Below are positions 25,434 to 37,222 of a stretch of 64,000 bases of DNA, piece by piece. The DNA comes from an uncultured Bacteroidales bacterium. GTDB taxonomy: Bacteria > Bacteroidota > Bacteroidia > Bacteroidales > Paludibacteraceae. The DNA lies in the NCBI GenBank assembly GCA_946406195.1, contig CAMJJT010000001.1:124001-188000 (forward strand). Direction: 5' to 3'. Made by a program: the position numbers and the translations under genes. The notes beneath the pieces are model-generated. The model searched no databases. It was given only the letters and a program-made list of their open reading frames with translations, and was not told where the DNA came from. How positions within the stretch are numbered: the first letter of the stretch is position 1; each line of letters begins with the position of its first letter.

Positions 25434-25581
25434 CCATTTTCGAAATCTCGTCTTTGCATTGTTTCAGCAATGTAGAGACTTCTAAGGCGAGGCGCTTGTA
25501 TTCATCCATACTAAGCGCCTCTGCTTTTTCTAACTGCTCTATCAGTTGTTCGGCGCGCTGTATTGCTTCATCGTATGTCAT
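25411..25581 (-). CDS. xseB: Exodeoxyribonuclease VII small subunit
   Basis: MTYDEAIQRAEQLIEQLEKAEALSMDEYKRLALEVSTLLKQCKDEISKMATNLNSL read on the minus strand; below ORF-track length cutoff. Confidence 0.85.
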   Translation of the reverse strand: MTYDEAIQRAEQLIEQLEKAEALSMDEYKRLALEVSTLLKQCKDEISKMATNLNSL

Positions 25582-26605
25582 AATTCAACGAATTGGAAAG
25601 GTAAGTTTCTGTTTGCTCGCATTGTGCACGTGATGAGAAAATACTTTTGAATAAATGTTTCCCGATGTCATTGCGACGACTATATTCCTCATAGTTTTCC
25701 TTTTCAAAAGCTATCTCATGGTGCGGATAACTATGAGGCGTAATATTGATATAGGTAAAAAGGGGTATGAGGTTCTCTCGCGGATCCGGATGAACCGTTT
25801 CCTCAAAACGCTCTATATTGATCTGTTCGGGAAAGAGCACAATAATACCGCGTTTCCGACATCTTTCCGCCAAAGGACGAATGACCGTTTCCAAACTGGC
25901 GGAAACGATGGTGAGATCAAAATTAGTATAGGACGAATCACCTATTTTGCGGATTGGACGCAGTTGTAATTGATTAATCGGTATATCGGCAAACAACTTG
26001 TCAAAATCGGCCAGTTCTTCCACATTATCTGCATTCATGGTATAGTTCACACGAACATTAAATGCCGGAAAATGCGCTTTCACTCGTTTGATAGACTGCA
26101 ACAACTCGAGGAATGCATCATAATTCGCGGTGGGACCCATGAGGTTCTCATACGTCTCCCGATGAATACCATGTAACGATATCGTCAATTCATCTAATCC
26201 GGCTTCGACCAGTGTGCGTAACTGTTCATAGGTAAGCCTTACCCCATTACTGGTCAAAGCGATATAAGGAATGCCGTACTGCTTGCCCTGTCTGACCAAT
26301 AATAAGGCACCCTCCGGATCCATGGTAGGCTCTGCGCCACAACCTATCTGCAGTTTGATCGTTCTATGAAAAATAGAACGCGCTATATGATGAATCTGCT
26401 CAGATGTCAATTTACCGCGTCTGCGTTTGCGCTCCTCTTCGTTACTGAAATAGCACATGCGGCAGCGATAGTTGCAGGCCAGTACGGAATCGATAAAAAC
26501 ACCGACGTAACGGCGCCTGGTAATATGCATCAACCATAATGCCGCCAATTTGATACGACTACCTCCTAATTGGGAAAAACGATGTAATAGTTGATAGATA
26601 TTCAT
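25568..26605 (-). CDS. Radical SAM protein
   Basis: DSVLACNYRCRMCYF cluster-binding motif CxxxCxxC. Confidence 0.88.
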   Translation of the reverse strand: MNIYQLLHRFSQLGGSRIKLAALWLMHITRRRYVGVFIDSVLACNYRCRMCYFSNEEERKRRRGKLTSEQIHHIARSIFHRTIKLQIGCGAEPTMDPEGALLLVRQGKQYGIPYIALTSNGVRLTYEQLRTLVEAGLDELTISLHGIHRETYENLMGPTANYDAFLELLQSIKRVKAHFPAFNVRVNYTMNADNVEELADFDKLFADIPINQLQLRPIRKIGDSSYTNFDLTIVSASLETVIRPLAERCRKRGIIVLFPEQINIERFEETVHPDPRENLIPLFTYINITPHSYPHHEIAFEKENYEEYSRRNDIGKHLFKSIFSSRAQCEQTETYLSNSLNYDIR

Positions 26606-26607
26606 TC

Positions 26608-27882
26608 CTACTTACCTTTTCCTTGAATAATAACTCCTACTGTAAAGAATAGTATTTTCAGATCAAGCAGCAATGACATATTCTCCACATAGACTACGTC
26701 GCAATTGAGCCGCTCTATCATTTTCTCCATCGTATCCGTATATCCTACACGGATGGGTCCCCAGCTGGTAAGTCCCGGACGCACCTTATAAAGCAGACAG
26801 TAGTAAGGCGCCTCTTTCATGATTTGCTCCACGAAATAGGGTCTCTCCGGACGCGGACCGACGATAGACATCTCGCCGCGGAGTATATTCCATAACTGCG
26901 GCAGTTCATCCAAACGGTATTTGCGTAACCATCGCCCTACCTTCGTGATACGAGGGTCATTACCCTGTGTCAGATGAGGCACTCCATCTGCCTCTGCGCC
27001 GGCTATCATCGTGCGGAACTTATAGATTTTGAAGGGCAGCCCATATAAACCAACGCGCTCTTGACTGTAGAAAATAGCACCTTTGGAGGAGCATTTGATC
27101 TGTAAGGCGATGAGTGCCACGAGCGGCAAAAGCAATACCAATCCCATCGCAGAAACCAGTACATCAAAGGCACGTTTGATACAGATCTCCGAATCACTCA
27201 TCGCTTGCTCGGTGATGCGGATCAGAGACGGCCGGTCCAGATGACCGATACGCGCCGCACCCGTGAGCATGTCATACACGCGCGGAACCATACTGATCTC
27301 ACACGAAAGCGGATACAGGCGCGCAATGACCGTATACAGTTCCCGATCGGAGTAACCTTGCGGCAAGTCGATAATCACTTCGTCTTGTTCTCCGGCAATC
27401 AGATGTTCCGTTTCCTCCATCGAGTGAATGGTCTTGGTGCGTATAATTCCACGACGACGAGAAAGAAGAGTAATCGTCAAACGCGGGATGTAACTCAACA
27501 CAAACTGCAACCCGAACAACACTCCTAACGATACGATATACTGCCGGTAATTAACAATCGGGTCGTCTATGATGATGAAGAAAAAGAAGAGCAGCGCAAT
27601 GATGCCGGCACAAACAAAAGTCCGCATAAACTCCCGCCACAATGGTTTTTGGAAAGGACGAAGGTAATAACCCGACATATAATAGATGATCAGACAAACC
27701 ACCGGATAAACCAACAGCGGGGGCCAAAAATTGAATGCCGGAATGAGCACGTCTTCCAACAAACCGACACGACCGTCATAAACCATCCAGCGGAAAATAA
27801 GGAAACACAACCACACCAATTCACTACTGATGAGGTCCGCGATCACATATCGTAACTGTTGTTTACGTCTAAGATTCATCAC
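26608..27882 (-). CDS. Polyprenyl glycosylphosphotransferase (undecaprenyl-phosphate sugar transferase)
   Basis: KRAFDVLVSAMGLVLLLP..GAIFYSQERVGLYGLPFKIYKFRTM..RLDELPQLWNILRGEMSIVGPRPE. Confidence 0.93.
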   Translation of the reverse strand: MMNLRRKQQLRYVIADLISSELVWLCFLIFRWMVYDGRVGLLEDVLIPAFNFWPPLLVYPVVCLIIYYMSGYYLRPFQKPLWREFMRTFVCAGIIALLFFFFIIIDDPIVNYRQYIVSLGVLFGLQFVLSYIPRLTITLLSRRRGIIRTKTIHSMEETEHLIAGEQDEVIIDLPQGYSDRELYTVIARLYPLSCEISMVPRVYDMLTGAARIGHLDRPSLIRITEQAMSDSEICIKRAFDVLVSAMGLVLLLPLVALIALQIKCSSKGAIFYSQERVGLYGLPFKIYKFRTMIAGAEADGVPHLTQGNDPRITKVGRWLRKYRLDELPQLWNILRGEMSIVGPRPERPYFVEQIMKEAPYYCLLYKVRPGLTSWGPIRVGYTDTMEKMIERLNCDVVYVENMSLLLDLKILFFTVGVIIQGKGK

Positions 27883-28783: not shown

Positions 28784-28815
28784 TTTGCATATATGCAAAT
28801 TTTATTGTACCTTTG
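28784..28815 (+). promoter_or_regulatory. Promoter of the PLP decarboxylase-like gene
   Basis: TTTGcatatatgcaaa..TACCTTTG, N20 spacer. Confidence 0.8.
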
Positions 28816-28847
28816 CACGCGGAATTATCTTTAACATAAAAAATCAT

Positions 28848-30062
28848 ATGAAAAGATACATTTTTGGGGTGCTATTAGCGGTCACCGTATTGACCCTTAC
28901 CGGCTGCACGAAGAGCTCGGGGTTCGACAAACTCGACCAATGGACGGAGAGTTGGAAAAAAGGTCAGCAGACCTATTTCGGGTATCCTTGCAACCAGCAA
29001 TCGGCTTTGCATGATTTCTACGAGTGGTACGTGGGTACAGGTTTGGACAGGGTGAACCTCAATAACGCCGGTGACCCGATGACCGATCATCCATGGAGCA
29101 TGTCTACTCAGGCTTTCGAGCGTGAGGTGATTGAGTTCTTCACCCCCTTATACGGTTTCGACAAAGACGATGTATGGGGTATCGTGACCTATAGCGGCAC
29201 TGACGGCAATAACCACGGAATATATTTTGGCGCCAACGACCTCATGAACCGCACCGGTCAGTTGCCTATCGTTTATGTGAGCGATGAGGCGCATTACTCA
29301 AACATGCGCCTTTGCGACTTGCAGCACTTGGATGTCAGACTGATCAAGAGCGACGCCATGGGCCGTATGATCCCCGAAGAACTGGAGGCATCGCTGGATA
29401 CCACTCGTCCTGCCCTGATTGTCTATGCTATGGGTTCGACTTTCAAAGGTGCCATCGATGATATAGAGGCGCTCAACGCCGTGTTGGCAAAGCACCCCTC
29501 GATGGAGACCTACCGCCATGTGGACGCCGCGCTCTTCGGCGGATACCTGCCCTTCACCGAGCACCAACGGATGGTTAGCAGCAAAGAGATGCATTTCGAG
29601 TCCATCGCTATCAGCGGACATAAGTTCTTCGGCATTGATTCGCCCTCTGGACTGTTCCTCTGCACCCGTAAAGTGTATGACAACCAGAATAATTTTAATG
29701 TCACTTACCTTAATGGTAACATGAAGATGATCAGCTGCTCGCGCGACGCCGTACAACCCCTCAAGTTCTGGTGGCTGATTCAGAAAGTAGGATACGACCA
29801 ATGGTCGAAGCAGGCGAATCAAATGTTAGATTGCACCGCTTACTTGGAGCAAGAGTTGAAAAAGATCGGTTGGCCCTGCTGGCGAAACGAGTACAGCAAC
29901 ACGGTCTTCTTCAGACGCCCATCGCCTGAGTTATGCAGTCTCTATAACCTCGCCTTGGGTTACGACGAGGCGTTCGGCGGAGAACTCGCGCACTTGGTGG
30001 TAATGCAGCACGTAACCAAAGAGAAAATAGACGGATTCGTTAAACGATTGACGAACGACTAA
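28848..30062 (+). CDS. Histidine decarboxylase-like PLP enzyme with lipoprotein signal peptide
   Basis: MKRYIFGVLLAVTVLTLTGC lipobox; TYSGTDGNNHGIYFG, HVDAALFGGYLPF, SISGHK-like AISGHKFFG, SRDAVQPLKFWW. Start at 28848 downstream of promoter. Confidence 0.8.
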   Translation: MKRYIFGVLLAVTVLTLTGCTKSSGFDKLDQWTESWKKGQQTYFGYPCNQQSALHDFYEWYVGTGLDRVNLNNAGDPMTDHPWSMSTQAFEREVIEFFTPLYGFDKDDVWGIVTYSGTDGNNHGIYFGANDLMNRTGQLPIVYVSDEAHYSNMRLCDLQHLDVRLIKSDAMGRMIPEELEASLDTTRPALIVYAMGSTFKGAIDDIEALNAVLAKHPSMETYRHVDAALFGGYLPFTEHQRMVSSKEMHFESIAISGHKFFGIDSPSGLFLCTRKVYDNQNNFNVTYLNGNMKMISCSRDAVQPLKFWWLIQKVGYDQWSKQANQMLDCTAYLEQELKKIGWPCWRNEYSNTVFFRRPSPELCSLYNLALGYDEAFGGELAHLVVMQHVTKEKIDGFVKRLTND

Positions 30063-30756: not shown

Positions 30757-31433
30757 CATTGGTTTTTGCAAGCAATAATGCCCATAAACTGGAAGAAGTA
30801 CGTGCCATGATGCCCGTGTCCGTCCGCGTATTAAGCCTGAAAGACATCAGGTTTGAGCAAGACATAGACGAAACCGGTACTACGCTGGAGGAAAACAGTC
30901 TCATCAAAGCCCAAGCCGTGTGGGAGTTTATTAGCCATCAGAAATCAGAAATCAGCAATCAGATGGATGGTGTATTTGCGGACGATACGGGTCTGGAGAT
31001 AGATGCCTTGGATGGTCAGCCCGGTGTTTATACCGCGAGATGGCACTTGGAAAGGAGGAAGGACGAAGGAGGAAGGACGAAGGTGATGGGTGAGAGGGAG
31101 ATTTTTGCGGCGAACAGAGCCAAAGCCCTGCACGAATTAGAAGGCAAGACCCATCGCGGCGCCCAATTCCGGACCGTGATTACGTTAATCAAACGACCCA
31201 CTACTAACGACCAACAACCATCTGTGATTCAGGTGGAAGGCGTTGTGCGCGGACGGATAGCCGAAGAGGAATATGGCAGCGGAGGATTCGGTTATGACCC
31301 TGTCTTCATTCCCGAGGGTTACGATAAGACCTTCGGCGAACTGCCGGCAGAAGTGAAAAATAGTATCAGCCATAGAGCCAAAGCCCTTGAGGAACTGGTG
31401 AAAGTGATAAACAAGACATATGATCAGATATAA
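30753..31433 (+). CDS. rdgB: XTP/dITP pyrophosphatase (RdgB/HAM1)
   Basis: LVFASNNAHKLEEVRAM, FADDTGLEIDALDGQPGVYTARW, GGFGYDPVFIPEGYDKTF. Confidence 0.93.
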   Translation: MTLVFASNNAHKLEEVRAMMPVSVRVLSLKDIRFEQDIDETGTTLEENSLIKAQAVWEFISHQKSEISNQMDGVFADDTGLEIDALDGQPGVYTARWHLERRKDEGGRTKVMGEREIFAANRAKALHELEGKTHRGAQFRTVITLIKRPTTNDQQPSVIQVEGVVRGRIAEEEYGSGGFGYDPVFIPEGYDKTFGELPAEVKNSISHRAKALEELVKVINKTYDQI

Positions 31434-34400
31434 ATTTATAGCAGGCATTGTCCTTTGCTGTCTGCTTGTGCAAGTACAGGCGGCGAGTTGGACCACTCAT
31501 TTTGCGTATAATAACGTCACTCGGATTGCTATGACGCCTGATAAGGTGTTTGCCCTGTCGGACGGCAACCTCTTCAGCGTCGATAAACAGACCGAACAGA
31601 TTCGCATCTATAACCGTCAGTCCGGACTCCATAGTACCGGCATTTCGTCTATCGCGTATGACGAGACGGGCAAACAGCTCATCATCGGTTATGAGACCGG
31701 TAAGATAGACATCCTCAGCTCCCTCGGCGTACATTACATCGGCGAACTGTACGACAAGGATATGACACAACGCAAAACGATCTATAACATTACCATCAAG
31801 GGACGCTTGGCTTATCTGGCAACCCATTATGGTATTCAGACGATGGACCTCCGAGAGCATAAGTTAGTGGATAGCTACTGGTTGCGCCCTGGTGGCGAAG
31901 AGACACCCGTAAAAGATGTACTGCTGGCAAACGACAGTATTTATGCCTTCACGGATGACAGTCTCTTCTGTGCCGCTATGAAGGATAACCTGCCGGACTA
32001 TCATTTCTGGAAACGCGGAGCACGCTCAGGACGAATCAGCCCCGACCCCGAAAAGGGCGTTCATTATCAAGACGAGTCTGGTCATTGGTACGCCGGACAG
32101 GCAGAGGGTATCGTACGTTTCACTCCAGTTGAGCGACTGACTTACAAGCCACAAGGACCGCTGGTCAACGAACCGAATCGCATCTCTATCTCCCACGAGA
32201 AGGTATGGGTCACACGCGGTGGACGATGGACTACGCAATACCAGATAGCAGGCGCAGTCATGCATTATGACGGTTCCCGATGGACCAACATTGACCGCGA
32301 CGCCATCCTCGCAAAAGGATGCAAGGACGTGTTGGATTTCATGAACATTGCCGCAGACCCTAACGATCCTACCCATTTCTACGCCACCAGTTACGGAACC
32401 GGATTATACGAGTTTCGCGACGATACTATCCGCCAATTCATTGCGGACGGCACGAATCCCCTTAGTTCGGCAGCACTGACAGATCCTGCGCACTACACCC
32501 GTCTGGATTACGCCACCTTCGATACAAACGGACACTTATGGTTCCTTAATGCCGGTCAAAGCACTGAGATAGCCTATCCGCTCATCTGTATTGACAAGAA
32601 CGGCGAGTGGCATGGTCTGAGCGTCATAGAGGGCACTAATGCCATCAGTTTGGTAACACCCACGGGTCTGGTCATTGACGCTTTCAATAACCAACGTAAG
32701 TGGTTCGCCAACGGGCGCTATGGTCCCTGTCTCTGCCTCTTGGACGATGGAGGCACCCTTTGGGATCCGTCCGATGATAGAGTCAAGAGCCGTATCTCAT
32801 GGACCGACCAACTCGGTAATAACTTTCAGCCGAATAACATCTTCTCTATGACACAAGATGCAAAAGGAGGCATATGGATTGGCACGGATTTAGGCGTAGC
32901 GTACATCGAGCCGGAGACTGATTACTTCCAATCGGAGGCAATAGTCCGTCCCTACCTCTTGGACGAGATAGGCGAGACGCCCCTGACCGAACAACGGATA
33001 GATGCCTTATGTATCACTCCAGAGGGCGAAATATGGATTGGCACACAGAGTAAAGGGATCTATGTTCTTGATAGCGAAGCCACTCGCATCCTGCAACATT
33101 ACACCATTGAGAACACGGCACTACCCTCCAACGGTATTCTTTCGTTAGCGTGCAGCGAGAGCGGTATCGTATGGATTGGTACAGGGGATGGTCTGGTGGC
33201 ATATGACCCTAACGGTACCACCGAAAAACTAAACCGTATCACCGACGAGAACGGCTTTGAGTGGGAGTTTGGTAGCACCGGGCAATGGAAACTACATTTG
33301 TCTTATACCGACCCTACTGAGATAGCAGCCTCTTCTTCACGCATCTATGCGCAAGCACAAGGAGCCGTCTTTTATTTGGACCGCGCAACAGACCAACTGG
33401 AGTACCTCAGCCGTGCTACCGGTCTGAAAGGTTCATCCGCCGCGCATATAGCGTATGACGAGCCTACCCAACAACTCATCATCGCCTATGAAGACGGGCG
33501 AATTGACCTCATGGATAAGGACAACAATGTCCGCCAGATGCCCGACCTGCCTCTCAAAGCAGGTTCGATAAGTGTAGCTATCCATTGTATCACACCCGGT
33601 ACCAATTACGCCTATCTCGGCACCTCCTTCGGTATCGTTACCATAAACCTAAAAAAGGCGGAGATAGCCGACACCTATTATATAGGACATGAGGCAGCCG
33701 CCATAGAAGTGCAGCAGATCGTGGAGTTGGGCGACACGCTCTATGCCTTCTCCTACGACTCGCTCTATAAAGCATGCCTCAAGGACAACCTGCCCGACTA
33801 TACGTTTTGGCACACCGAGAAACTGCCCTGTGTGCAGGTACAACAGGCTGTCGTTTGGCGCGACAAGATGTATATATTGTGCGATAACCGTCTCTACCGC
33901 CGTACTGCTGCAGGATGGCAAACCGTACTGCAAGAAAAAATACGATGGATACATGCCAACGACGGACAGCTGCTGCTCTATACAGACGCCGGACTCTTCC
34001 GTCTGACCGAAGACGATCAAACGCAGGCACTCAGCAATCGATACTCCATGAACGATGCGATCTACTCAAAGGGCGAATATTGGGTAGCTGAGTACGGTTT
34101 CGGATTGATCAAACTGGGTACGGAAGGAGATTCTTATTATCATCCCCAAGGCCCCAATAGCAACTATGGATACTGTATGAACACGGCGCATAACCAACTA
34201 TATAGCGCCATAGGTGGACGATGGGCTTCTAACTGGGGACGCTATGGACGAATCAATATTTACGATGGACAGAAATGGAGAAGCATGGATCCGGATTATA
34301 TCGGATACCGCGCAGGCTCATGGCCGATGGATATATCCAGTATAGCCGTTGCCCCCAACGATCCCGGACATTTCTTCGCTGCCACCTACGCGACCGGTGT

Positions 34401-35523
34401 CTTTGAGTTCCATAACTATGGGGAAGACGGCATCAAGCATTACACTGCCGACACCGTGTATCATACCACCACGCTCCGTGAAGCTGTTCCGGGATTGTCA
34501 GCGAAGGACTACCAATGGTTCATTCGTACCGATGGCGCCATGATGGATAAGAGCGGTAACTTATGGGTACTCAATGCAACCACGGTAGGAAAACCATTGC
34601 ATGTCTTCACACCGAACAAACAATGGCACGCGCTGAACTTGCGAAGCGGAGGAACGAACCTGACGCTGACCACCCCGGCAGGTATCTGGGTGGACCGTCG
34701 CAACGAGAACCGCAAATGGCTATTTGACCAACGCTTCTCGCAAGGTGTCATCCTCTTAGACGATGGTGGTACGCCTACCCTCAACTCCGATGACCGCTGT
34801 ATCAAGCGTTCTTCCTTTACCGACCAAAATGGCAATGTGCTCACCCCTACACAATTCCGTTGCTGGGCGCAAGACAAACAAAACCGTATATGGATCGGTA
34901 CCGAAAAAGGTCTCTTCCTCATTCCTGAAAAAGTGGACTTCTTCCTCTCTGATGCTTGCCATCGTATCATTATCCCGCGTAACGACGGCACCGGATTAGG
35001 CGATTACCTCTTGGGTAACGAACAGATCAATTGTATGGCGATTGATGGGGGAAACCGTATGTGGATCGGTACCGCCAACTCCGGTCTGTACATCATCGAA
35101 GACGACACCATCACTGTGGCACAATTCACGGAGAACAACTCCCTGCTGCAATCCAATGCCATCCAGTCGATTGCTATCATGCCGAAGACGGGCGAAGTGT
35201 TCGTCGGGACGGATAAAGGAATCGCTTCTTTCCGTAGCGATGCCAGCGAACCACAGGAATCCATGGGCGGCGCATATGCTTTCCCGAACCCCGTACGACC
35301 GGACTATATAGGTTATATCACCATTACCGGTCTCACGGAAAACACAACGGTAAATATTATCGATGAAGGAGGCAACCTTGTTTGCAAGACCCGCAGTAAT
35401 GGAGGTACAGCCGTTTGGGACGGTAAGTTAGCCGACGGACGACGTGCTACCCCTGGCGTCTATACCGCCCTTTGCAATAGTACCGGCGGACACACGGCTG
35501 TCAAGATATTAGTGATTCACTAA
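31420..35523 (+). CDS. PorZ-like beta-propeller protein with duplicated propeller module and C-terminal sorting-type domain
   Basis: WTTHFAYNNVTRIA..DGNLFSVDKQTEQIRIYNRQSGLHSTGISSIAYDE; duplicated at about residue 620; C-term FPNPVRPDYIGYITITGL..DGRRATPGVYTAL. Confidence 0.82.
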   Translation: MIRYKFIAGIVLCCLLVQVQAASWTTHFAYNNVTRIAMTPDKVFALSDGNLFSVDKQTEQIRIYNRQSGLHSTGISSIAYDETGKQLIIGYETGKIDILSSLGVHYIGELYDKDMTQRKTIYNITIKGRLAYLATHYGIQTMDLREHKLVDSYWLRPGGEETPVKDVLLANDSIYAFTDDSLFCAAMKDNLPDYHFWKRGARSGRISPDPEKGVHYQDESGHWYAGQAEGIVRFTPVERLTYKPQGPLVNEPNRISISHEKVWVTRGGRWTTQYQIAGAVMHYDGSRWTNIDRDAILAKGCKDVLDFMNIAADPNDPTHFYATSYGTGLYEFRDDTIRQFIADGTNPLSSAALTDPAHYTRLDYATFDTNGHLWFLNAGQSTEIAYPLICIDKNGEWHGLSVIEGTNAISLVTPTGLVIDAFNNQRKWFANGRYGPCLCLLDDGGTLWDPSDDRVKSRISWTDQLGNNFQPNNIFSMTQDAKGGIWIGTDLGVAYIEPETDYFQSEAIVRPYLLDEIGETPLTEQRIDALCITPEGEIWIGTQSKGIYVLDSEATRILQHYTIENTALPSNGILSLACSESGIVWIGTGDGLVAYDPNGTTEKLNRITDENGFEWEFGSTGQWKLHLSYTDPTEIAASSSRIYAQAQGAVFYLDRATDQLEYLSRATGLKGSSAAHIAYDEPTQQLIIAYEDGRIDLMDKDNNVRQMPDLPLKAGSISVAIHCITPGTNYAYLGTSFGIVTINLKKAEIADTYYIGHEAAAIEVQQIVELGDTLYAFSYDSLYKACLKDNLPDYTFWHTEKLPCVQVQQAVVWRDKMYILCDNRLYRRTAAGWQTVLQEKIRWIHANDGQLLLYTDAGLFRLTEDDQTQALSNRYSMNDAIYSKGEYWVAEYGFGLIKLGTEGDSYYHPQGPNSNYGYCMNTAHNQLYSAIGGRWASNWGRYGRINIYDGQKWRSMDPDYIGYRAGSWPMDISSIAVAPNDPGHFFAATYATGVFEFHNYGEDGIKHYTADTVYHTTTLREAVPGLSAKDYQWFIRTDGAMMDKSGNLWVLNATTVGKPLHVFTPNKQWHALNLRSGGTNLTLTTPAGIWVDRRNENRKWLFDQRFSQGVILLDDGGTPTLNSDDRCIKRSSFTDQNGNVLTPTQFRCWAQDKQNRIWIGTEKGLFLIPEKVDFFLSDACHRIIIPRNDGTGLGDYLLGNEQINCMAIDGGNRMWIGTANSGLYIIEDDTITVAQFTENNSLLQSNAIQSIAIMPKTGEVFVGTDKGIASFRSDASEPQESMGGAYAFPNPVRPDYIGYITITGLTENTTVNIIDEGGNLVCKTRSNGGTAVWDGKLADGRRATPGVYTALCNSTGGHTAVKILVIH

Positions 35524-35524
35524 G

Positions 35525-37222
35525 ATGTCAAACAAGGTCAAAACAGTATTTCGCAGCATAGTATTACTCACTATACTGCTTTTCCCGAATATCTTGGCTT
35601 GCTTTGTTGCCAGTGACCTGTCGTCCCCATTCAAAACCATCGCCTATCTGACGGTTGTATTTGCCGGTTTATGTGTACCGATGCTCGTTCTACGCAGGCG
35701 AACATATTTTGTTGTGATGGGTGCGCTTTGTCTTTTTTGCGCTCCGATAGAAATAGCGAGTCTGTACCTGAATCACAATCCCGCGACCGCTACCTTTGTA
35801 GGGCTATTCTATTCCACTAATTGGGAGGAGGTGGTCGGCGTGCTGAGTGCAATATGGCCTTTAGCAATCATGTTAGTGGCTATATGGGCGGGCTATTTTT
35901 TTCTGGCATGCCGCCAGCCGAACGAATGGATCATACCTCGCTGGATCGGAATATGGACAGCCGGTATCGGACTCCCCCTTCTCCTCATAGGCGCTCTTAT
36001 CTTCTTTTATCAGCACGCACGGAACATAAACAACATAACGGATAAAAAAGAAGCCATCACATTCGCCAAGGAGCTGATTGTGATGAAATTCAACAAGATA
36101 TTTCCCTATAATATCTACTTGAATACACAATCCGTCATAGCAGAGCAATACCATGCCAAACAGGCTCAAAAAGAACTGGACTCGTTCCTATTTGGAGTAG
36201 AAACTCCTAAGGATAGTTTGCCGGAACTATACATCCTTGTGATTGGTGAAGCAGCTAGAAGCGAAAACTTCGCGCTGAACGGATACGAACGGGAAACAAC
36301 ACCACGACTGCAGCGCCGTAAGAACATCATCAGCTATCCGAACATATATTCTCAAGCGGGCACTACCGAAGTGTCTGTACCACATATGATCAGCCGTATT
36401 GCTGCTACTGAAAAAGAGCGAATTAACACAGAAAAGACCCTTCCTGAAGCGTTTCATGAGGCAGGCTACCAGACTGCTTGGATTACCAATCAATCTCACA
36501 TTCTATGCACAGAACGCATTCTTGCTACGGTAGATAAACGCTTCGAGAGCGGAAAAGATATGAGTGTCACTAATAACTATGACGAGTATCTGCTAGCGCC
36601 ATTACAAAAAATACTGACCAACCGAAGTACCAAACAATTTATGATCGTACATACAATGGGTAGTCACTGGCGGTACGACACGCGTTATCCTTCTCAATTT
36701 GAACTATTTACACCCTCTTTGGGGGAAGATTTCCGATTATCCATGATTAAGCCGTCCAATCGTCAAAAGCTTGTCAACGCCTATGACAACACGATTCTCT
36801 ATACCGATTATTTCTTGGATTCACTCATCTCCGTGACGGAAAAGCAGCAGATACCGGCTGTCGTTCTTTATATATCTGATCATGGAGAGAACCTTTATGA
36901 TAATGAGCAAGAACTGATTTTGCATGGCAACTATAGTGCCAGCAAATGGCTGTATCATGTTCCGCTCATTGTTTGGTATAGCGATGCCTATGAAGCGCTA
37001 TATCCGGAGAAAGTAGCGGCGCTACATGCTCACGTCAACAGCCGTGACAACTCGTCCGTAGTATTCCACTCGATGATAGACGCAGCAGGTCTAAGATATA
37101 CAAACGATACTGCGGGCAACGCAACGATGCGCACCCGCAGTATATTCTCAAGCAGTTATTGCCCCTTAGACACGCTCTTTGCGCTCACGGCAGAAGGAGA
37201 ATGTATCGCTTTGGAGTATTAG
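35525..37222 (+). CDS. Phosphoethanolamine transferase (sulfatase fold)
   Basis: TM N-terminus, [35 protein letters not shown]. Confidence 0.88.

Follow-up and report, generated by a model that had tools for sequence, protein, structure and literature searches.

The window, a 64,000-nucleotide stretch from an uncultured Bacteroidales bacterium of the Paludibacteraceae, encodes what is likely to be an exported, periplasmic group II PLP decarboxylase that belongs to a subfamily of its own and is unlikely to act on histidine, with localisation, PLP loading, activity, substrate and role all predicted from the sequence. The gene is preceded by a promoter-like element, and its product opens with a putative lipoprotein leader:

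28784..28815, + strand: Bacteroidetes-type promoter identified by pattern match, -33 TTTG / -7 TAnnTTTG, TTTGCATATATGCAAATTTTATTGTACCTTTG
28848..30062, + strand: coding sequence of the predicted exported group II PLP decarboxylase, 404 aa, from ATG to stop codon inclusive
28848..28904, + strand: lipoprotein signal peptide, residues 1-19 (MKRYIFGVLLAVTVLTLTG), assigned by inspection and hydropathy
28905..28907, + strand: Cys20, predicted lipidation site and first mature residue

The original prediction placed the gene at 28784-30062; its end stands, while 28784 marks the start of the promoter element, and coding begins 32 bases beyond that element at ATG 28848. Matches to TTTG-N18-23-TAnnTTTG number 10 in the window against 0.94 expected, a count reached in none of 100 shuffles, and comparable elements lie upstream of the related loci L017, L018, L019 and L021. 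The mechanically called start, GTG 28656, was discarded because it lies upstream of the promoter; with the ATG 32 bases past it, the signal peptide is part of the translated product. Translation from a start downstream of the signal peptide had been named as fatal to the export claim, and no credible start of that kind was found; the motifs originally quoted all occur in one frame (GYPCN, GTDGNNHG, HVDAALFGGYLPF, SGHKFFG and, at the N-terminus, MKRYIFGVLLAVTVLTLTGC).

The leader combines a KR n-region with a hydrophobic core (maximum 10-residue mean hydropathy 2.8) and the lipobox LTLTG immediately before Cys20, by inspection and hydropathy the hallmarks of a bacterial lipoprotein. Its relatives were drawn from 80 loci in the genome collection and others from a family search, giving 81 distinct sequences after duplicate removal; leader classes, assigned by hydropathy and inspection, comprise 42 Sec/SPI-type leaders, 12 lipoproteins (the window protein among them) and 27 leaderless proteins. 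The lipoprotein signal first claimed for this PLP decarboxylase is thus borne out by the lipobox and by export leaders in dozens of relatives. Mature domains diverge with dN of 0.05-0.11 and dS from about 0.9 to saturation (dN/dS pairs: L065/L019, 0.049/1.06; L017/L065, 0.066/0.92) and leaders are mostly far looser, so that, judged from these rates, the mature domain is under strong purifying selection while the leaders drift. One family copy, L027:5001-6224, carries an in-frame stop and may be a pseudogene or an assembly error. No acidic cluster resembling the LES motif defined for surface-exposed Bacteroidetes lipoproteins (PMC5080379) follows Cys20, where the sequence reads CTKSSG, and none lies directly after the Cys in the lipoprotein relatives, which makes the periplasmic face the predicted site.

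Cytoplasmic members of the family comprise a 25-member Prevotella clade (support 100/100 in a reduced careful tree) and two horse-gut sequences, alongside versions in Chlorobiaceae, and the Prevotella clade indicates that export is not obligatory. These versions, together with the fact that PLP is made in the cytoplasm, favour a reading of the hydrophobic N-terminus as only a membrane anchor, or as the product of a mis-assigned start, with the enzyme acting in the cytoplasm. That reading is very improbable, however: with the promoter where it is, the first start must be ATG 28848, K/R n-regions with SPI or lipobox cleavage sites are found in 54 sequences, 38 of the 42 SPI leaders have Gln at +1 of the predicted site in keeping with the Bacteroidetes Q-rule (PMC5837995), and SPI and SPII leaders replace one another across the trees with export retained.

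For an exported enzyme, the original question of how PLP is supplied is a real puzzle, though precedents exist. P. putida Alr and V. cholerae BsrV, two broad-spectrum PLP racemases, are PLP enzymes that are exported and work in the periplasm, as is predicted here, but they have another fold, are not decarboxylases and are not known to be homologous to the window enzyme. Alr has been found active in the P. putida periplasm (PMC6034422), and E. coli GadB engineered to carry a Sec (PelB) leader showed extracellular activity at low temperature, Tat targeting being better than Sec (PMC4993724). The open-access literature searched yielded no natural group II decarboxylase described as exported, an absence that is weak evidence, and the main text of a proteome paper on P. 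bryantii B14 makes no mention of a decarboxylase (PMC7709123). In the proposed mechanism, the protein would pass through Sec, lose its leader to signal peptidase II and be lipidated on Cys20, and, with no surface-export signal, would stay anchored to the outer membrane on its periplasmic side; there, with PLP bound via Lys259 and working as the usual dimer, it would release CO2 from a free L-amino acid to leave an amine, with consumption of one periplasmic proton, a reaction that, being periplasmic, would need no amino-acid/amine antiporter.

Membership of the group II decarboxylases is supported by a PF00282 (Pyridoxal_deC) score of 82.5 bits against a gathering cutoff of 27 and by matches to group II decarboxylases in the PDB with E down to 4e-48, the best by sequence being plant SerDC 8jg7 (168 bits) followed by P. 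phosphoreum HDC 7erv (140 bits). An AF2 model (pLDDT 88, pTM 0.86) likewise returned 8jg7, 8jik, 8jij and 7erv as top Foldseek matches, with TM about 0.80. The motifs of the active site are distributed along the chain as follows:

28980..28994, + strand: GYPCN (45-49), N-terminal substrate-pocket motif, with Cys48 at the plant Ser/Ala selectivity position
29196..29213, + strand: GTDGNN (117-122), PLP phosphate-binding loop, with Asp119 where all HDC/SerDC references have Glu
29286..29300, + strand: EAHYS (147-151), with His149 stacking on the PLP ring, by alignment to 8jg7/7erv
29517..29555, + strand: HVDAALFGGYLPF (224-236), with Asp226 binding PLP N1 and Ala228 packing on PLP
29613..29633, + strand: SGHKFFG (256-262), with Lys259 forming the Schiff base with PLP
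29706..29744, + strand: catalytic loop YLNGNMKMISCSR (287-299), with Tyr287 as proton donor and Ser298 as phosphate contact from the neighbouring subunit

The roles of the PLP-contact and catalytic residues are taken from a study of CsAlaDC and AtSerDC (PMC11407765). The longer motif GTDGNNHG spans residues 117-124, and G117, T118, H149, T198, D226, A228, H258, K259, Y287 and S298 are conserved in exported and cytoplasmic relatives, except at T118, where the cytoplasmic Prevotella clade has Ser. Absence of active-site residues from the alignment had been named as grounds for rejecting the assignment, and the catalytic set is intact, including the four PF00282 active-site residues: PLP Lys (K259), N1 Asp (D226), stacking His (H149) and loop Tyr (Y287).

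The original description of a histidine-decarboxylase-like PLP enzyme therefore holds for a PLP decarboxylase with an intact active site, and fails for histidine as substrate. A true histidine decarboxylase that gives rumen bacteria periplasmic histamine is unlikely, even though the best NCBIfam model is NF002748 (PRK02769 histidine decarboxylase), the catalytic set is held in common with P. phosphoreum HDC along a full-length alignment, and seven discriminating positions match HDC only; the score of 265 bits falls below the curated equivalog cutoff of 305, a value not exceeded in any of 393 genomes from the order. Where HDCs have the invariant YPES, W77 and ALSG, the window protein has YPCN, P77 and ALFG, and five positions at which four HDC references all agree carry other residues (E48 to V/A/C, S49 to N, W77 to P, S230 to F and D292 to M). 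Described PLP-HDC clusters contain the antiporter gene hdcP, and a survey of histamine genes recovered them from Proteobacteria alone (PMC8465708), whereas no conserved antiporter neighbour was present in 79 loci of the family. Score and residue differences together exclude histidine decarboxylase as the most likely identity, and the suggestion of histamine as product is not sustained, since residues including the selectivity position differ from HDC and the protein scores higher against plant Ser/Ala decarboxylase.

The likeness to bacterial PLP-HDC (P. phosphoreum 7eru/7erv and plasmid HDCs of Klebsiella, E. coli and Vibrio anguillarum) extends to full-length homology, identical catalytic residues and similar length, at about 27-31% identity, but the window enzyme lacks YPES, W77 and S230, its family has no conserved antiporter neighbour, and it is predicted to be exported. 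Plant SerDC/AlaDC (AtSerDC, CsAlaDC; 8jg7, 8jij, 8jik) provide the best PDB match by both sequence and fold and have in common with it the PLP contacts, the catalytic loop Tyr, N49, P77 and F230; they differ in sharing only about 28% identity, in a selectivity residue that is Tyr/Phe in plants and V/A/C in the family, and in the loop residues M292, M294 and C297 and predicted export of the window enzyme, which also lacks the C-terminal zinc finger because its chain stops where the alignment stops. At 43 HDC/SerDC-discriminating positions conserved in the family, seven match HDC, 10 match SerDC and 26 match neither, and a further comparison gives 41 near-invariant subfamily positions that differ from every HDC/SerDC-type reference used; the best reading of these alignments is a distinct group II decarboxylase subfamily, separate from both histidine and serine decarboxylases.

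The YPX position decides between Ser and Ala in the plant enzymes, and AtSerDC lost its serine activity when the Tyr there was changed to Val or Ala (PMC11407765). At this position exported members mostly have V or A and the window protein C, against E in HDC references and the Tyr expected of a serine decarboxylase, and all 25 cytoplasmic Prevotella sequences have F, as in tea AlaDC. By analogy, mainly at this one position studied in plant enzymes, the substrate is probably neutral or aliphatic rather than histidine. Within the catalytic loop, the Asp, Thr and Gly of characterised enzymes are Met292, Met294 and Cys297, changes that would allow a PLP reaction other than decarboxylation. An exported enzyme catalysing something other than simple free amino-acid decarboxylation, such as aldehyde formation, transamination or a reaction at an amino group linked to a lipid or peptide, finds further encouragement in the 41 divergent positions, several of which lie in this loop, and in the Asp that replaces the GTEGN Glu conserved across eight diverse decarboxylases; it is nonetheless improbable, as Tyr287 is invariant in the family and the Tyr to Phe change abolished AlaDC/SerDC activity (PMC11407765).

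Outside the order, cytoplasmic orthologues of 47-52% identity are spread over 22 genomes from a single family in a different class of the phylum. A Fibrobacter identity for this group (f136) was rejected: TIGR02147, TIGR02148 and a 16S probe were uninformative, and the FMO protein PF02327, found in all 15 genomes tested, identified green sulfur bacteria. The cytoplasmic orthologue is widespread in green sulfur bacteria (Chlorobiaceae loci L168-L187); these proteins have most diagnostic residues (GTDGN, D264, C297, K306 and W309) in common with the window enzyme but possess no signal peptide, and their hosts are phototrophs, not gut bacteria. They form the sister group. Minimum parsimony requires three localisation changes, and a single clade of all exported sequences is rejected (AU p 1e-5); a position of the cytoplasmic Prevotella clade within the main exported clade is uncertain, the alternative having an AU p of 0.36. 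The simplest reading of these trees, not proof, would be a gain of export in Bacteroidales with later losses.

The gene is accessory, with any match in 15 of 200 genomes of the window's family, roughly ten being close matches, and the window's own genus contributes copies (L010, L011) that sit in distant parts of the tree. It is also solitary: no recurring neighbour, operon or transporter partner was seen around the locus in the 79 loci, and in the window it lies among Sua5, Ham1, PorZ and unassigned ORFs. Solitary context, accessory status and scattered same-genus copies suggest horizontal movement as a single gene. A split of roles between an exported and a cytoplasmic paralogue within a single genome was considered and dismissed, 38 of 39 genomes being single-copy; the MAG G588 holds both types, possibly through contamination. 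A separate 546-aa methionine-decarboxylase-like homologue with a GYQANQ motif occurs at L013 (G093, in the window's family). Of the 80 record titles, 62 point by their wording or series name to ruminants, the rumen or the horse gut, the other 18 being uninformative.

Elsewhere in the window, the PorZ-like T9SS protein at 31420-35523 (+) is 1367 aa long, about twice the 757-position PorZ model, and one half can be aligned to the other with 33-36% identity (E 2e-64), giving the appearance of a tandem-duplicated PorZ. It is adjoined by a phosphoethanolamine transferase-like gene at 35525-37222 (+), with EptA/CptA matches below cutoffs. On the opposite strand, a radical SAM protein at 25568-26605 (-), which reaches none of the listed curated NCBIfam cutoffs, adjoins a bacterial sugar transferase at 26608-27882 (-).

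Amino-acid decarboxylation in bacteria is regarded as a cytoplasmic process, usually antiporter-coupled; were the enzyme exported, amines would arise directly outside the cytoplasm, within the gut of hosts whose health biogenic amines affect. The balance tips slightly towards a previously undescribed extracytoplasmic decarboxylase subfamily of herbivore-gut Bacteroidales, supplying periplasmic amine free of any antiporter and retargeted from a cytoplasmic enzyme with green sulfur bacterial relatives. This raises the questions of the route by which PLP would get to an enzyme exported by Sec and of the benefit to the bacterium, and Segatella baroniae B14 (L086), a cultured carrier with a complete genome, makes the exported version directly testable. 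As read from the export signal conserved across dozens of herbivore-gut Bacteroidales species, the bacteria that carry the gene probably make an amine outside the cytoplasm.
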